39,703 nt of DNA, taken from Nanobdellota archaeon (lineage in GTDB: Archaea > Nanobdellota > Nanobdellia > Pacearchaeales > GW2011-AR1). A program made the position numbers and the translations under genes. Positions 2,238 through 36,985 of this stretch are shown here, piece by piece; within the stretch, counting starts at the first letter, position 1, and every line of letters starts with the position of its first letter. A model generated the notes under the pieces. The model ran no database searches, was not told the origin of the DNA, and saw nothing but the letters and a program-made list of their open reading frames with translations. The stretch is taken from the NCBI GenBank assembly GCA_020053375.1, contig JAGVNG010000027.1, positions 1 through 39,703 of the forward strand, written 5' to 3'.

Positions 2238-2249
2238 CGCCCCGACCGA
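2238..2249 (-). repeat. Duplicated tRNA-Glu 3'-end fragment (att-like)
   Basis: CGCCCCGACCGA identical to 2860-2871 (3' end of tRNA-Glu), same orientation. Confidence 0.6.
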
Positions 2250-2266
2250 ACTACAATATGGTGTAG

Positions 2267-2599
2267 CTAATCTTTCAAAAAAGAAATTATTTTATTTATA
2301 ATTTCTTTAAATTTTTCTGGTTTTAAAGAGCCAATTTTATATTTTATCAGGGATTTTTCTATGGAGAATATCTTATCTAATCTAAGATAACTATCTACTT
2401 TTAATCCACCGCCAATAAAGTCTTTTTTACTAACGGGAACTTCAACAGAAGATTCATATGATTTGCCAGTTATCTGGTTAACTATAATATCATCCCCTTT
2501 CGGAATCTTAATAATTAAAGCAGGCCTTCGTTTAACTTGAACTAAATTTGAGAAAGGAAAGTCTATTATAATTACATCTCCTCTTACAAGTCTTTCCAT
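2267..2599 (-). CDS. mazF: MazF/PemK-family mRNA interferase toxin
   Basis: RGDVIIIDFPFSNL...KRRPALII and length typical of MazF; 16-nt overlap with upstream antitoxin. Confidence 0.85.
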   Translation of the reverse strand: MERLVRGDVIIIDFPFSNLVQVKRRPALIIKIPKGDDIIVNQITGKSYESSVEVPVSKKDFIGGGLKVDSYLRLDKIFSIEKSLIKYKIGSLKPEKFKEIINKIISFLKD

Positions 2600-2802
2600 A
2601 TTTCATCTTCCTCTTTATTCAACCATGTCTTTGCCAAAGATTTCTCTGACATTAAAGCTGTTTCTGGAATAGACTTTCTTAAAATTATTTCATCATCTTT
2701 TCTTATTACAATTAATTTATCTCCTTCATTAATCCCTTTACGTAAATCTAATGGAATTACTATCTGTCCTCTTGAACTCATTTTTGTTGTGTCAATTTGC
2801 AT
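2584..2802 (-). CDS. AbrB/MazE-family antitoxin
   Basis: SSRGQIVIPLDLRKGINEGDKLIVIRKDDEIILRK: swapped-hairpin AbrB domain. Confidence 0.85.
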   Translation of the reverse strand: MQIDTTKMSSRGQIVIPLDLRKGINEGDKLIVIRKDDEIILRKSIPETALMSEKSLAKTWLNKEEDEIWKDL

Positions 2803-2823
2803 AAATAAGATTAATCTTACTTA
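2802..2823. promoter_or_regulatory. Palindromic operator at antitoxin start
   Basis: TAAATAAGATTAATCTTACTTA (20/22 symmetric) next to TATA-like TTTAAATA. Confidence 0.55.
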
Positions 2824-2859
2824 TATTTAAATCTTTCGTAAAAAGAACTTTTGACAGAA

Positions 2860-3010
2860 CGCCCCGACCGAGATTCGAACTCGGGTCACGGCCGTGCTCC
2901 AATGAGAGTTTTTATTTTCTCGTTTGAATCGGAACTAAAGTTCCTCAACAAACGCCTCCTTGCGGAGTCATTTGAGAGGGCCGCATTCTTGGCCTCTGAA
3001 CTATCGGGGC
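2860..3010 (-). tRNA. tRNA-Glu(CUC) with 78-nt intron (2895-2972) at position 37/38
   Basis: Acceptor GCCCCGA/TCGGGGC, T-arm CCGAG-TTCGAAT-CTCGG; exons match tRNA-Glu(UUC) at 36426-36498 except the anticodon. Spliced loop CTCTCAC. Confidence 0.9.
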
Positions 3011-4552: not shown

Positions 4553-5476
4553 TTGAATATTCTTCTAGAGATGAGATTAAAATTAAAAAAGGGAAAACAA
4601 AGAGAGTTAATACTTAAAGCAAAAGAAGGCAAAACATGGAAAGAGTTATCTAAAATTTTAGAGATTAATGAGCAATATCTTTATAGGGAATTAAAAAATG
4701 AAAAAAGGTTGTTATCCGATAAAATCTATAATCACTTGTCAAGATTAGTTAATGAAGATTTTAATAGATTTATAACACAAAAATTAAGCGATAATTGGGG
4801 CAGGAGTAAAGGGGGATTAAATTCCATCGGTTCTACTAAAATTTTGCAAGATGTGAAATTTAATGAGAAATTAGCCGAGTTCATCGGAGCAGTTTTAGGT
4901 GATGGTCATGTTCAATTTAATAAAATGAAAGGAGTATATTACATAAGAATAGCTGGTGATTTAAAGAAAGATGAGAAATATCATATGAATTATCTTAAAA
5001 ATTTAGTAAAAGAGATATTTAATTTTGAGATAACTGAACAAAAAAGATCTAAAAGCAATGAAAGATTTATGGATATTTATGGCAAAAAACTTGTTGAATT
5101 TTTTATTTCTATGGGCATAAAGCCAGGTAACAAGATAAAAAATCAATCAACAATACCATCTTGGATATGGAAAAATAAAAATTTCCTTAAGGCATGTATA
5201 AGAGGGTTGATAGATACTGACGGGTCTATCTTCAGAATGTCAAGAAAAGACCCAAATCTTCTTAGGATTGGTTTCACAAATTATAATAAAACTCTTCTTC
5301 AGGATACGAGGAAAGCACTAATAGAAATCGGCTTTAATCCTTCTAAGATAATCAACAATAGGCAATTTTATATATCTCGACAAATGGAAATAGAGAAATA
5401 TTTAAAAGAGATTGGATTTTCCAACAATAAACACCAAGAAAGACTTAAAGCATTTAATAGCAGCCTCGTCTTCTAG
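4553..5476 (+). CDS. LAGLIDADG-type homing endonuclease
   Basis: Two LAGLIDADG-like motifs (FIGAVLGDGHVQF; CIRGLIDTDGSIF). Confidence 0.85.
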   Translation: MNILLEMRLKLKKGKQRELILKAKEGKTWKELSKILEINEQYLYRELKNEKRLLSDKIYNHLSRLVNEDFNRFITQKLSDNWGRSKGGLNSIGSTKILQDVKFNEKLAEFIGAVLGDGHVQFNKMKGVYYIRIAGDLKKDEKYHMNYLKNLVKEIFNFEITEQKRSKSNERFMDIYGKKLVEFFISMGIKPGNKIKNQSTIPSWIWKNKNFLKACIRGLIDTDGSIFRMSRKDPNLLRIGFTNYNKTLLQDTRKALIEIGFNPSKIINNRQFYISRQMEIEKYLKEIGFSNNKHQERLKAFNSSLVF

Positions 5477-5534
5477 CGGTCAAGGAAACGGGACTCTGGC
5501 TCCCGTAACCCAGGTTCGAATCCTGGCGAGGCTA
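5462..5534 (+). tRNA. tRNA-Gln(CUG)
   Basis: Acceptor AGCCTCG/CGAGGCT, anticodon loop CTCTGGC, T-arm CCAGG-TTCGAAT-CCTGG. Confidence 0.9.
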
Positions 5535-31415: not shown

Positions 31416-31473
31416 CGTCGCCGACAGGAAGTCAACGATCCGACCGCACTCATGGCAGGGCGCAGGAGAGATG

Positions 31474-32358
31474 TTATATATAACTTTTATGCTCATCTAA
31501 ATACCTTCTAAAAAACCATTGAACAAAGATATTATCTTCTTTTTTTGTTTGAGACCTTTCTAATGCATTGTAATAGCTGGTTCTTTTTGAATATTGAATG
31601 TCTAGTAAAGGGAATTTATGCCTTTTTAGGATAAAATTCATCATGAGTCTTGATATTCTTCCATTGCCATCTGCAAAGGGATGGATTGTAACAAATTTTA
31701 GATGAACTAAAGCTGCCAGTTCAACAGGATGCAAATTAAATTTATTTTGGTTATACCATTCAAAAAATTCTTTTAATAAGATATCTATTTCAATATGCAT
31801 TGGGGGCTTAAATTTAGATTGAGAAATAGCTACTTTATGATTTCTTATTTTTCCTGCAATATCGCTTTTTGTTTCATTCATTAATTCTTTGTGCCATTTT
31901 AGCACGATTTGCAAATTTAAGTCTTTTTCGTAATCTAACATTTCAAAAAATACTTTTTTATGGGCTTCAGCTTCCTTAACATCATTTAAGGGTCTTGAAT
32001 TTGGGGTTATTCCTCTTTCTAAAAGATTTGCTGTTTCTTTTAATGTTAAGGTTGAACCCTCTATTCTTTGAGTATTATATGTGAATTTAACAGCAAAATT
32101 TTCTTTGGATTTTTCTTTGGCGGTTTTTGGAAGATTTTTATATTCAACAGCAAAATTCTCTTTTATTTTATCAATATCTCCTATAAATTTCTCTTTATAG
32201 AATTCCTGCATAAATTTCTTCTTTTTTTCATCTAAATCTTTTGGAATTGCATCTCCTAAATAAGCCTGTTTCTTTTTAACAGATTTACCCTCCCGATGGC
32301 TATGAACAAGATAAAAATATTCCTTTTTTCCTCTCCTAATTTTTTTTAATTCTACCAT
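31474..32358 (-). CDS. Fic-domain protein (class II-like, N-terminal inhibitory motif)
   Basis: HPFADGNGRISR active-site motif; TQRIEG fits [S/T]xxxE[G/N]. Confidence 0.88.
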   Translation of the reverse strand: MVELKKIRRGKKEYFYLVHSHREGKSVKKKQAYLGDAIPKDLDEKKKKFMQEFYKEKFIGDIDKIKENFAVEYKNLPKTAKEKSKENFAVKFTYNTQRIEGSTLTLKETANLLERGITPNSRPLNDVKEAEAHKKVFFEMLDYEKDLNLQIVLKWHKELMNETKSDIAGKIRNHKVAISQSKFKPPMHIEIDILLKEFFEWYNQNKFNLHPVELAALVHLKFVTIHPFADGNGRISRLMMNFILKRHKFPLLDIQYSKRTSYYNALERSQTKKEDNIFVQWFFRRYLDEHKSYI

Positions 32359-32415: not shown

Positions 32416-32430
32416 ACGCCCCGACCGAGA
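32416..32430 (-). repeat. Duplicated tRNA-Glu 3'-end fragment (att-like)
   Basis: ACGCCCCGACCGAGA identical to 36425-36439, with further degenerate T-arm similarity. Confidence 0.7.
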
Positions 32431-32470: not shown

Positions 32471-32716
32471 TCATAAGAACATTCTAGAAATTAAGGGCGA
32501 ACTATCTTCTTTCTTAATCTTTATTAGGATTTCTTTTTCTCTTGGCACTTCTTCAAAATATAGCTCTAGAGCTTCCTTTAGCCTAGCCTTCGCCTGTTCT
32601 ATAGTATCTCCTTGAGTAACTATATTAGGAAATTGTATAGAACTTATGCTATAAATTCTATTATTGCCCTTGCCTTCAGGGGTTATAATAATGTCAATTT
32701 CCATTCTATTTTCCAT
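32471..32716 (-). CDS. hicB: HicB-family antitoxin
   Basis: SISSIQFPNIVTQGDTIEQAKARLKEALELYFEE. Confidence 0.82.
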   Translation of the reverse strand: MENRMEIDIIITPEGKGNNRIYSISSIQFPNIVTQGDTIEQAKARLKEALELYFEEVPREKEILIKIKKEDSSPLISRMFL

Positions 32717-32751: not shown

Positions 32752-32915
32752 TTAAAATATACCTTCAAATTCCTCCCTTTTTATCCCTGCTTCTTCACAT
32801 TCCTTAAGCAAATTTAATCTTACAGCATTGCTCGGTCTTTTCACATTAACTAAAACTATTGGTCTTTTCAAAGAAGGTAAGCTATCTATCCTGTTTATGA
32901 TTATATGGTCTCCTC
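32752..32915 (-). pseudogene. hicA: hicA toxin, 3' part (interrupted)
   Basis: Joins in frame to 36266-36353 when the 32916-36265 insertion and one TSD copy are removed; ends ...LLKECEEAGIKREEFEGIF*. Confidence 0.82.
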
Positions 32916-33005
32916 TACTCTGGTGCATTAATTGGTCTTAATGTCTTAATAACAAAATATAAAAATCTTGCAAGAATTAGCAGGCATAAGAAATGAAATT
33001 GCAAA

Positions 33006-33041
33006 TTCAGGCACCGAATAATTTAAATAGTTCAGGTACCT
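33006..33041 (+). promoter_or_regulatory. Operator-TATA-operator module of the 52-aa AbrB-like gene
   Basis: TTCAGGCACCGAA...TTTAAATA...TTCAGGTACCT; boxes 25 bp apart. Confidence 0.65.
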
Positions 33042-33050
33042 CTATCTTTT

Positions 33051-33209
33051 ATGAAAATAAGAAAAGTACTTGATAAAAGAGTTGGGAACACTGCTTACTT
33101 CAAATATCTTATAACTTTGCCAAAAGAGATTGTAGAAAATTCAGGACTTCTTGAAAAAGATTTAAAAGTAAAAAAAGAAGAACACAAAATTATAATTGAA
33201 AGAGATTAA
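33051..33209 (+). CDS. 52-aa AbrB/MazE-like DNA-binding protein
   Basis: MKIRKVLDKRVGNTAYFKYLITLPKEIVENSGLLEKDLKVKKEEHKIIIERD*; below ORF-track cutoff. Confidence 0.7.
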   Translation: MKIRKVLDKRVGNTAYFKYLITLPKEIVENSGLLEKDLKVKKEEHKIIIERD

Positions 33210-33210
33210 A

Positions 33211-34566
33211 TCAGTTAAAATGATATGTGCTCCCACGTCTTTCTCCATAATGTTTAGCTAATCCTTTTGATACTAATTCATTTAATATGCGAATTGCAGT
33301 GGGTCTGCTTATTTTGTGTACTTTCATAACATCTGAAGTTGAAAGAATTCCTCTTTCACGCCCATATAATAAAATAATATCTCCTAATGTTTCAGGTTTT
33401 CTTTCAGCAAATTTTAAATTGAGATGAAATATATTTGAAAGAATTGTTATCTCTGGCTGTTCTAATCCTCTACGCATCATTTCTCTTTTTATTATGGGTA
33501 TGCCCTGTCCAGCTGCTTCTGCTTTATGTACTGGACGCAAGAAATTATATATCCATTGATTACGATGAGTTGGAATTCCCTGATTTAATATTTTTTCTAA
33601 TTCTGCAGGGGTTGGTGCACCTGGATTTTGAAATTCAACCCTATCATCAAAAATCCTAATTAAAGATTCTTGTGGGTCACTATAATCTCTATGAACAATC
33701 ATATTAACCACAATTTCTCGGAGCACTATCTCTGGAATTATTGGTTCTTCAAATCTATCAGAACCCTGATAATATGTTCTCACAGGTAAATTAAGCTTTA
33801 AAAAATTAATACAACTATCAATTAATTTTCTTGCAGTTGTGCTTAAAAGAATGGCTGCAATTCTATCTATGGGTTTATCTCCTCTAAATCTTACAAGTTG
33901 AATTTTACATTGCGGTAAGAAGTATGATGGATTATCAACTAAAACAATAGTTCCTAAATTAGTTAATTGGTCTCCTTGTTCCATAATTGCTTTATTGCTT
34001 TTAAGAAAATTTTCTTCGGTTTGTGGATTTAAGGAATTACGTTCAGCTGCTTTTTTCATATAAAAAAGAAGCTCACTTCTATCTATGTCTGTTTTAGTTG
34101 CTGGACTTGGTCTCTGTTCCCACGTCAACATATTTCTACGAGTAAATATATCCCTAAAATTATTCTGAGTCATTTTCTTTGCTGAATCTTGAACCCTATG
34201 ATAACTAACATCTCTGTAAGAACAAATGTTCCCTCCTAAACCTGTTATTTTATATATGGCAATTTTTTTACCCTGACGTTCAATAAATTTTGGACTTGAG
34301 GTTGTAGGAATAGGGTCACAATTTCTCAATACACTTCCTACCTGTGTAATTACTGTTTGTTCATCATTTACCCCTATAACTTTAGGAGGACGTTCATCAT
34401 TAAGTCCAATTATTAACCAACCACCACCAGATGTCGCAAATGCAGCAATTTTCTCCCCTAAGACATCTAAATTTTTTGTTCCTAATGTCCAATCAACTTC
34501 ATAGCCTTCTGGCATCTGTCCCGCTAAAATTGAATCTACTATTTCTTCTGGCTTAAAATTTTCCAT
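33211..34566 (-). CDS. Schlafen/AlbA_2-type putative ATP-binding regulator with C-terminal wHTH
   Basis: EVDWTLGTKN...AAFATSGGGWLIIGLNDE; EIVLREIVVNMIVHRDYSDP; C-terminal winged helix. Confidence 0.8.
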   Translation of the reverse strand: MENFKPEEIVDSILAGQMPEGYEVDWTLGTKNLDVLGEKIAAFATSGGGWLIIGLNDERPPKVIGVNDEQTVITQVGSVLRNCDPIPTTSSPKFIERQGKKIAIYKITGLGGNICSYRDVSYHRVQDSAKKMTQNNFRDIFTRRNMLTWEQRPSPATKTDIDRSELLFYMKKAAERNSLNPQTEENFLKSNKAIMEQGDQLTNLGTIVLVDNPSYFLPQCKIQLVRFRGDKPIDRIAAILLSTTARKLIDSCINFLKLNLPVRTYYQGSDRFEEPIIPEIVLREIVVNMIVHRDYSDPQESLIRIFDDRVEFQNPGAPTPAELEKILNQGIPTHRNQWIYNFLRPVHKAEAAGQGIPIIKREMMRRGLEQPEITILSNIFHLNLKFAERKPETLGDIILLYGRERGILSTSDVMKVHKISRPTAIRILNELVSKGLAKHYGERRGSTYHFN

Positions 34567-34642
34567 AATATAAATGTAAAGATATATCTTTATATATTTT
34601 ACTATTTTACATTTTTTGAATTATAGATAAAAAAGACAATAA

Positions 34643-34680
34643 TTCAGGTACCGAAACATATATAAACATCAGGTACCTGA
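34643..34680 (+). promoter_or_regulatory. Operator-TATA-operator module of the transposase
   Basis: TTCAGGTACCGAA...TATATAAA...TCAGGTACCTGA; boxes 25 bp apart. Confidence 0.65.
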
Positions 34681-34687
34681 ATGTCTT

Positions 34688-35581
34688 ATGGAAACGAGAC
34701 GTTCAAAGTGCCAAAGCGATAATATAGTAAAACGAGGCACTTTTACAACACAAGCATATGGAAAACAACAAAGATACTATTGCAAAAACTGCAATAAGAA
34801 ATTCATAGAGCATACTGGCTTTTACAGAATGAGAAACACCCCACAAAAAATTACTTTATCTCTTGACCTATTCTTTCGTGGTTTAAGCACTCGTGAAGTC
34901 CAGAGCCATCTACAAGCATTTTATCCTCATAATTCAGACCACAGCACAATATTAAGGTGGATTAGAAAATACTCTCTGCAAATTGCTAAATATACAGATA
35001 AGTTAAAAGTCAATACTGGCTCTTACATAGAAGTTGATGAGATGGAATATCATAGAAGAAAAAGCCATAAAGCAAAATTAGGTATAGATGAGAATTGGTT
35101 TATTGATGCAATAGATGTTAAAACCAGATTTATGCTTTCTTCTGCTTATACAAAAGAAAGAACTGGAAAAGAAGTTAATTCTGTTCTTGAAAAAATCAAA
35201 AAGAAATCTGACAATATTAAGATAGTCACCACAGATGGTTTTACAGGATACATAAAACCAATAAAAAGAGTTTGGGGTTACAATAAGCATACAAGAAATC
35301 ATAATGTCAAGCATAATATTGTAAATGCTTCAAGAGGTGAAGGCTTTAATATTTGGGTTGAAAGAATGCACAATAGTATAAGACAAAGAACACAGAATTT
35401 TAGAGGTTTTCACGGCTCTATTAATTCTGCATACTCAATAATGAAAGGCATAGAAATCTTTTACAATTTCGTAAGAAAACACGAAGCCCTTAAAGGCAAA
35501 ACTCCATCTGATGTTGCTATTTCATCTTTGAAATTTGAAAGCCCTAATAGATGGCTTGAATTGATTAAGATGTCAAATTAA
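34688..35581 (+). CDS. DDE transposase with N-terminal zinc ribbon (IS6/IS240-like)
   Basis: CQSDNIVKRG...YYCKNCNKKF; DEMEYH, TTDGFTGY, VERMHNSIRQRTQNFRGF...NFVRKHEALKGKTPSDVA. Confidence 0.82.
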   Translation: METRRSKCQSDNIVKRGTFTTQAYGKQQRYYCKNCNKKFIEHTGFYRMRNTPQKITLSLDLFFRGLSTREVQSHLQAFYPHNSDHSTILRWIRKYSLQIAKYTDKLKVNTGSYIEVDEMEYHRRKSHKAKLGIDENWFIDAIDVKTRFMLSSAYTKERTGKEVNSVLEKIKKKSDNIKIVTTDGFTGYIKPIKRVWGYNKHTRNHNVKHNIVNASRGEGFNIWVERMHNSIRQRTQNFRGFHGSINSAYSIMKGIEIFYNFVRKHEALKGKTPSDVAISSLKFESPNRWLELIKMSN

Positions 35582-35931
35582 ATTTTTTGTATATATTTAG
35601 AAATCTCGTTCACATCTCTTTTAACTCTTTCAACACCTATTTCAGAGTCAGCTCCAATAAAAAATCTAATCTCACTATGAACATATACACTTGTGGCTAA
35701 TTTTGTTGTTCCTGCTTTATGTTTTCCAGAATCTCTTATCTCTCTTGCTTTACTGCCTGAATAAATTTTAGCGTCTGCTCTTATCCAAATCGTATCAAAC
35801 ATTTCTTTTGGTTTGGATAAAACAAATAAGACAATTGTAACTATCCAAGATATGACAGCAAGAGTTATAATAGTTGAAGAACCTTGAAAGGCAATAATTG
35901 TAAGTAAAACAGAAACTCCTAAACATATCAA
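35578..35931 (-). CDS. Membrane protein, transposon cargo
   Basis: Two N-terminal TM segments; starts in the 4-nt overlap with the preceding ORF. Confidence 0.6.
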   Translation of the reverse strand: MICLGVSVLLTIIAFQGSSTIITLAVISWIVTIVLFVLSKPKEMFDTIWIRADAKIYSGSKAREIRDSGKHKAGTTKLATSVYVHSEIRFFIGADSEIGVERVKRDVNEISKYIQKI

Positions 35932-36203
35932 GCATATTTTCTTAATTCTTTAGCATTTTTACGCGATTGTTCTTCTGACCTTTTAGCTTCCATTTTTGCT
36001 ACAAAGTCTGAAACTCCATCTGCTACATTATCTTTTGTAACTTCTGGATTTGGATATGAAACCTTATATCCTAAATCCTCTAATTTTGTAGAAAGGTTTT
36101 CAATAGTAATTTGTGGATGCCCAGATTCCAAAGGCACTTGTGTATAAACAGGTTTTCTCTTCAAATCTTCTTTTGAAGGAAAATCATCATCTTCATCACT
36201 CAT
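35928..36203 (-). CDS. Acidic hypothetical protein, transposon cargo
   Basis: 91-aa ORF overlapping the start of 35578-35931. Confidence 0.6.
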   Translation of the reverse strand: MSDEDDDFPSKEDLKRKPVYTQVPLESGHPQITIENLSTKLEDLGYKVSYPNPEVTKDNVADGVSDFVAKMEAKRSEEQSRKNAKELRKYA

Positions 36204-36265
36204 TCTTTTTTAAAGAATCTTATACTTAAAAATTTAACTAAAAGACCAATTAATGCACCAGAGTA

Positions 36266-36353
36266 GGTCTCCTCTGATTCTTTTGATTTCCAAGTTATGT
36301 TTCTTTAATATGGAAATTATACTACTTACTATCGGAGTCAATCTGTAGCCCAT
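36266..36353 (-). pseudogene. hicA: hicA toxin, 5' part (interrupted)
   Basis: ATG at 36353: MGYRLTPIVSSIISILKKHNLEIKRI|RGDH...; continues in frame at 32915 after excision. Confidence 0.8.
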
Positions 36354-36425: not shown

Positions 36426-36498
36426 CGCCCCGACCGAGATTCGAACTCGGGTCACGGCCGTGAAAGGGCCGCATTCTTGGCCTCTGAACTATCGGGGC
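36426..36498 (-). tRNA. tRNA-Glu(UUC), intronless
   Basis: GCCCCGATAGTTCAGAGGCCAAGAATGCGGCC-CTTTCAC-GGCCG...TCGGGGC. Confidence 0.93.
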
Positions 36499-36655: not shown

Positions 36656-36985
36656 CTACTGCAATGCTAATCTTATTTTTTGATTAATATCGTCCTTTAT
36701 TTTTGAACTATTTATTTCTCCTATTTTTCCATAAATAAGACTTTTATGCAATGTGAATATCATGTCAACATAAATAAAAGAATCGAAACGGATATCTCCA
36801 CTACATGCATTTTTTGGCAAAAATATTCCATATTTTTGGAAATCTCTTTGTTTTGTGGTAATTTGACAAACAATTGAATTTTCGCCTTCTAGTGGATTAA
36901 TAATTAGTGCAGGTCTTTTCTTAGCATTTTTTAAATTAGTGAACGGGAAAACAGTAAGGACTATATCGAACTTTTTTAATATCAT
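36656..36985 (-). CDS. mazF: MazF/PemK-family toxin
   Basis: KFDIVLTVFPFTNLKNAKKRPALIINP. Confidence 0.83.
   Translation of the reverse strand: MILKKFDIVLTVFPFTNLKNAKKRPALIINPLEGENSIVCQITTKQRDFQKYGIFLPKNACSGDIRFDSFIYVDMIFTLHKSLIYGKIGEINSSKIKDDINQKIRLALQ

Follow-up and report, generated by a model that had tools for sequence, protein, structure and literature searches.

Archaeal integrative elements that target tRNA genes, such as the pNOB8/SNJ2-type elements and the thaumarchaeal iMGE, insert at the tRNA 3′ end and are bounded by short direct repeats (PMC8371274, PMC6563490). Thaumarchaeal att sites can be as short as 8 bp, with a median of 17 (PMC6563490), and such elements occupy tRNA genes in tandem and use intron-containing tRNAs as well (PMC8371274, PMC6563490). 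The dif (pdif) modules of Acinetobacter plasmids are small, site-bounded and recombinase-less, often carry toxin-antitoxin (TA) genes and are believed to depend on the host Xer system, acting in trans, for their movement (PMC6449649, PMC12907356). Integron gene cassettes, archaeal ones included, form single-gene arrays rich in TA genes, and their archaeal setting includes Nanoarchaeota (PMC9668308). Integrase attachment sites of DPANN archaea were hardly covered in the literature that we searched.

The genomes of DPANN archaea are very small, and gene gain and loss in them is poorly understood. The locus described here comes from an archaeon of Candidatus Pacearchaeota with a genome of 679,461 bp in 33 contigs, and lies in a window of 39,703 nucleotides, by which we mean the whole stretch of DNA that was analysed. 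The genomes compared with it were draft assemblies throughout, mainly metagenome-derived. A sequence-only reading had noticed that the 3′ end of tRNA-Glu(CTC) is repeated directly at 2238-2249 and 2860-2871, delimiting a 622-bp unit, and both coordinates and strand were reproduced. The features of this locus are the following.

2860..3010, minus strand: tRNA-Glu(CTC), the proposed insertion target, with a 78-nt intron at about 2894-2971 (ARAGORN with introns)
2860..2871, minus strand: 12-nt tRNA 3′ tail TCGGTCGGGGCG, the att-like core on the tRNA side
2824..2831, minus strand: TATA-box-like sequence TTTAAATA, kept in homologues
2806..2819, minus strand: palindrome TAAGATTAATCTTA, immediately 5′ of mazE and kept in homologues, a likely operator
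2584..2802, minus strand: mazE antitoxin of the AbrB/MazE type, 72 aa (PF04014, E 1.5e-8; TIGR01439)
2267..2599, minus strand: mazF toxin of the PemK/MazF type, 110 aa (PF02452, E 1.3e-12), overlapping mazE by 16 nt
2250..2859, minus strand: TA cassette insert, 610 bp with 27.5% GC, or 622 bp including the orphan tail
2238..2249, minus strand: orphan 12-nt tail, lying 622 bp downstream of the tRNA-Glu(CTC) end and bounding the cassette on its far side

At 2860 the repeat coincides exactly with the 3′ end of tRNA-Glu(CTC), discriminator base included. The insert is bounded by a direct repeat of the tRNA 3′ end and the tRNA itself is left whole, as at the boundary of a tRNA-integrated element. 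Between the repeats we found MazE, MazF, TTTAAATA and TAAGATTAATCTTA and nothing further, as had been claimed for an antitoxin, a toxin and an operator, and both proteins exceeded their Pfam cut-offs (PF04014, PF02452). The MazE/AbrB gene stands 5′ of the PemK/MazF gene in one operon, the two overlapping. Judged by its gene families and layout, the unit at 2250..2859 is one type II TA operon (MazEF). The 622-bp unit contained no integrase gene, only mazE and mazF; the 610-bp insert contained no integrase remnant, and terminal inverted repeats were absent from the unit. Gene content thus bore out the description of a TA-only unit bounded by copies of a tRNA 3′ end, with no recombinase inside. 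A small hairpin was seen just before the orphan tail at 2238.

The 12-nt tail CGCCCCGACCGA had four matches across the 679,461-bp genome, all inside the window and on one strand, with 0.00 expected in the window from shuffles. Besides the two copies set 622 bp apart on the same strand, there is one at 36426 that forms the 3′ end of tRNA-Glu(TTC), and an orphan at 32417, 4009 bp downstream of that gene. This genome search for further fragments, proposed by the sequence-only reading, therefore showed that the repeat is not common away from tRNAs. We then compared the last 10-11 nt of each tRNA with its own downstream DNA (36 tRNAs of the genome, with about 270 kb). Copies of the own tail lay downstream of 6 of the 36, all on the same strand; the opposite strand of the same 36 tRNAs and ~270 kb held none. 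When the tails were swapped as a control, 11-mers matched in 3/1260 pairs, and all 3 were true orphans reached from a neighbouring tRNA. Chance repetition was ruled out by the genome-wide CGCCCCGACCGA count together with this control.

The proposal of a minimal cassette was right about the TA-only unit but overlooked that such units are many: tail copies follow 6/36 of the genome's own tRNAs and recur in relatives. Integrase-less cassettes beyond MazEF were found at tRNA-Lys, tRNA-Leu and tRNA-Glu(TTC). Two units stand in tandem behind tRNA-Lys(CTT), each closed by a tail copy: the first, of 472 bp, has a single RidA-family gene, and the second, of 671 bp, has an 87-aa ORF together with a toxin that weakly matches RelE/YafQ. 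A 1238-bp unit and a 90-bp unit follow tRNA-Leu(TAG), and tRNA-Arg(CCT) and tRNA-Leu(AAG) have short structured units only, of 88 and 69 bp respectively.

Short units of 66-190 bp with strong hairpins were observed behind many tRNA types, at L399, L400 and L402 in this genome and at L248, L197, L246, L149 and others in relatives. They end in a 10-23 nt copy of the tail of their own tRNA and often bear the antisense T-arm motif GATTCGAAC, and in this genome the tRNA-Leu(TAG) and tRNA-Arg(CCT) units have the inner sequence GAAAAGGGAAGCTTATAAAAGAAACNGCAAGGTGTCTTTTATT in common. Rfam at gathering scores found only tRNAs, and no other RNA family, in the short tail units. They could be either a structured RNA or a mini-element.

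The second tRNA-Glu gene of the window carries a unit that was interrupted by a transposon, with the following features.

36426..36498, minus strand: tRNA-Glu(TTC), the second proposed insertion target, with an identical tail
36267..36353, minus strand: 5′ piece of a HicA-like gene, across the transposon from the 3′ piece (tentative; the pieces were read separately)
32915..36266, no strand assigned: transposon inside the cassette, with perfect 25-nt terminal inverted repeats and target duplication GGTCTCCTCT
34688-35581: IS1/IS1595-like transposase within the transposon
33211-34566: SLFN/AlbA_2 protein within the transposon
32752..32928, minus strand: 3′ piece of the HicA-like gene, broken by the transposon (tentative, without a Pfam hit)
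32471..32716, minus strand: HicB-like antitoxin, a weak match below the cut-off (PF15919, E 4e-4)
32417..32428, minus strand: orphan tail of tRNA-Glu(TTC), 4009 bp downstream, with 14 nt in common
31474..32358, minus strand: Fic protein directly beyond the orphan tail at 32417 (PF02661, E 5.7e-22)

Subtracting the length of the transposon leaves a cassette of ~650 bp, and this HicAB-like unit is in the size class of the MazEF (622), RelE-like (671) and RidA (472) units. The Fic gene is possibly a second cassette of the array, and a Fic gene likewise follows a tRNA-tail copy in the relative G050. A degenerate tail after Fic, at 31436, has 3 mismatches in 12 positions and was left out of the counts. 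Separately, a second MazF-like gene (36656-36985 of the window, 39% identical to the first) was seen between tRNA-Ile(TAT) and tRNA-Glu(TTC), and G048 (L046) has a similar TA at the equivalent place, after an orphan tRNA-Ile tail.

Relatives without the TA keep the order tRNA-Gln, membrane protein, tRNA-Glu(CTC). Two of them, G144 and G073, have the membrane gene, tRNA-Glu and DisA with no TA, DisA being found at 725 and 1462 bp respectively; in the window DisA lies 1202 bp beyond tRNA-Glu, with the 622-bp unit between. Because the gene content from tRNA-Glu to DisA differs in all three, these are syntenic cassette-free loci and not base-perfect empty sites. The comparison for empty sites proposed at the outset was thus answered in part: the same neighbourhood does occur without the TA, but in other genera, to which all the TA-free syntenic loci belong, and with different genes. 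As to the genes themselves, the DisA-type diadenylate cyclase near tRNA-Glu (588-1658 of the window; PF02457, PF10635) is also present in G073 and G144, and the latter has a second DAC-like ORF between tRNA-Glu and DisA. A LAGLIDADG-like ORF, named by eye, occupies 4553-5476 of the window, its 3′ end overlapping the tRNA-Gln(CTG) gene (5462-5534), and a homologue (45%) sits just upstream of tRNA-Glu(CTC) in G057.

Within the same family, 11-nt tail copies were found at 18-19 of 115 tRNA-Glu-type loci, in 633 kb of downstream DNA. Every copy was on the same strand and had its end exactly at the discriminator base; the other strand gave none over the same 115 loci and 633 kb. Tail-bounded units of 5-8 kb at tRNA-Glu in relatives encode a tyrosine recombinase of ~385 aa that matches XerA and phage-integrase profiles. 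This protein occurs in 65/191 genomes and is often placed within 400 bp of a tRNA end, frequently behind tRNA-Glu and also behind tRNA-Asp, Gly, Ser and Leu. The family is absent from the genome of the window, whose single PF00589 protein is XerA (NF040815 over the cut-off, TIGR02249 under it). The flank motif TTGT/GGG of the integrase elements was enriched (9/39 vs 10/210, p = 7e-4), which serves as a lead only, the pattern having been picked after seeing examples; it is present in the tRNA-Glu(TTC) unit and absent at the left end of the MazEF unit. At tRNA-Glu(TTC) of G073 (L177, contig C6), a 5.6-kb integrase element and then a 1034-bp HepT-MNT TA-only unit stand in tandem, each closed by the tRNA tail. 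Over their final 51 bp the HepT-MNT unit and the adjoining integrase element are 94% identical, which fits a TA-only unit that would use the same end as the integrase element.

MazF relatives (43-79% identity) were patchily distributed over 24/191 genomes, our own included. The relatives come from Candidatus Pacearchaeota MAGs, one of which is filed as Nanoarchaeota. The closest sit in other genera, where the conserved membrane protein is only 42-56% identical; for this reason the MazEF pair is likely, on these identities, to have moved between genera. Its homologues adjoin tRNA-Glu or tRNA-Arg tail copies in 9/23 loci. MazEF lies behind a tRNA-Glu tail in G171 and G081, with a tail on one side only, and beside TCGTGGGGGC[AG] in G050, G015, G155 and G040, with degenerate TCGTGGGGGC[AG] in G247 and G163. 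In several of these genomes TCGTGGGGGC[AG] is the 3′ tail of tRNA-Arg(GCG), and in G015 the tRNA-Arg-type tail bounds MazEF on both sides at a 655-bp spacing. GGGGC[AG] occurred on the coding strand beside these MazEF pairs 8 times vs 1.3 expected (p = 7e-5), 2 of the 8 coming from the window itself.

Short arrays of the tRNA-Arg-type sites were also seen behind tRNA-Arg in G163 and G247. At L354 (G163:C153), three units delimited by tail-like sites come after tRNA-Arg(GCG), encoding a 1112-aa secreted-looking protein, a C39-peptidase-like protein and a 310-aa protein, and an AbiE-like pair comes next. G050 has a serpin cassette at two loci (L352, L353), whose 92.5% identity begins precisely with the core's first base; these loci come after uS9-like and TrmY-like genes, named by eye from sequence. 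In G155 and G015 contigs break at the tRNA-Arg-type core, as would be expected if cassettes there are variable or repeated. At the DNA level, MazEF loci resembled each other only over the operon and promoter, so no conserved cassette ends were seen across genera. Long direct repeats reported by a repeat-finder on the TA contigs were mostly low-complexity, G155 having a 43-nt pair 622 bp apart. Viral origin was considered and rejected, as neither MazF nor the integrase, the latter queried by only two short patterns, had relatives in viral contigs.

Given its boundaries and cargo, the recurrence of such units both here and in related genomes, and the integrase elements at the same kind of site, the 622-bp MazEF unit is likely to be an integrase-less gene cassette that was inserted at the tRNA tail by site-specific recombination, with a recombinase most likely acting in trans. 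The recombination site would be the last 11-12 nt of the tRNA gene, that is about 3 nt of the T stem, the 7-nt acceptor strand and the discriminator. A circular cassette with a matching tail would recombine with the tRNA end; the tRNA would keep a full 3′ end and its old 12-nt tail would come to lie beyond the insert, where the copy at 2238 is seen. Either a tyrosine integrase of the tRNA-end family, on a helper element that is now absent, or the host XerA could be the recombinase. With TA genes as cargo, losing the cassette would carry a penalty, and such an addiction effect may have kept it in place. Mobilisation in trans is probable on the genomic evidence and has indirect support, because integrase elements and TA-only units have a common right end, because homology of the multi-copy cassette starts exactly at the tRNA-tail core and because the genome has more integrase-less cassettes, at tRNA-Lys and tRNA-Leu. 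We counted against the cassette reading the missing flank motif at the left end, the one-sided tails in G171 and G081, the lack of conserved ends across genera and the absence of the integrase family, with XerA only. A tentative extension, which we would not yet call probable, is a general Pacearchaeota gene-cassette system anchored on tRNA genes, one recombinase serving many tRNAs. Recombinase-less single genes or TA operons would be inserted serially at the tails of tRNA-Glu, Lys, Leu, Arg and others. The T loop, near-identical in all tRNAs, would be one half-site and only the 11-nt tail would have to match. Such a system would resemble integrons or dif modules on tRNA genes, and its TA units would stabilise the arrays.

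The unit could instead be the remains of a larger element at tRNA-Glu, from which an integrase and other genes were removed by internal deletion; the tails would then be old scars and the remainder immobile. Integrase elements of 5-8 kb do sit at tRNA-Glu in relatives, this genome lacks such an integrase, and the 1034-bp unit of G073 starts GC-rich with an integrase-N-terminus-like stretch fused to the MNT gene (by eye, with no Pfam support). Yet the 610-bp insert holds no integrase remnant, the serpin cassette has more than one copy and is bounded exactly at the core, and random deletion would hardly yield several tidy units of 470-670 bp at three tRNAs in a single genome, each with just one gene or TA operon; we regard this origin as unlikely. 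Direct repeats of 11-23 nt around the inserts could also be target-site duplications made by a Cas1-type (casposase) or DDE transposase preferring tRNA ends, rather than att sites of a tyrosine recombinase, and casposons too have flanking target-site duplications (PMC6563490). The repeats, however, always end at the discriminator base with no variation there, the MazEF unit has no terminal inverted repeats and the integrases at these sites are XerA/integrase-like, which makes a transposase very improbable. Least probable, to the point of being barely credible, is that the tail copy belongs to an RNA unit of the 66-190 bp class downstream of tRNAs, with the TA between by accident: such structured units do occur behind many tRNAs and there is the small hairpin before the orphan, but gene-sized units at tRNA-Glu, Lys, Leu and Arg have tail copies without that structure, and the short class, which has 10-23 nt in common with the tRNA, contains a conserved inner sequence that is absent from the MazEF unit.

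The many small gene units held behind tRNA genes by this genome and its relatives suggest a cassette system docking at tRNA ends. Recombinase-less, TA-rich arrays of sub-kilobase units at tRNA ends would be a compact route of gene exchange in DPANN archaea and, if the arrays are real, would tie TA systems to array upkeep, as has been proposed for integrons.

Compared with the known systems, the toxin and antitoxin families, the overlapping genes and the palindromic operator are those of MazEF/PemK type II TA systems; the proteins are ordinary and the difference lies only in the genomic setting. Single-gene cassettes standing in TA-rich arrays in an archaeal host recall integrons, whereas the anchor here is a tRNA gene. 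Integron attC sites were rejected at 27 tRNA-Arg-type sites, where GTTRRRY/RYYYAAC cores were absent or scattered and not at the expected place, and the genome held no integron integrase above the cut-off (TIGR02249 being under it). Like dif (pdif) modules, the unit is small, TA-bearing and recombinase-less in a genome with XerA; its boundaries are directly repeated chromosomal tRNA 3′ tails, which would set it apart from modules bounded by dif-like XerC/XerD sites. With the archaeal tRNA-targeting elements it shares insertion at a tRNA 3′ end, short repeats, tandem occupation and an intron-containing tRNA, but those elements are multigene and typically bring their own integrase, whereas here several tRNAs of one genome have units of 0.5-0.7 kb that lack a recombinase and carry one gene or TA operon. 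As far as sequence comparison can place it, the MazEF unit appears to belong in kind to the tRNA-end integrative elements, in an integrase-less, single-operon form that differs from those known.
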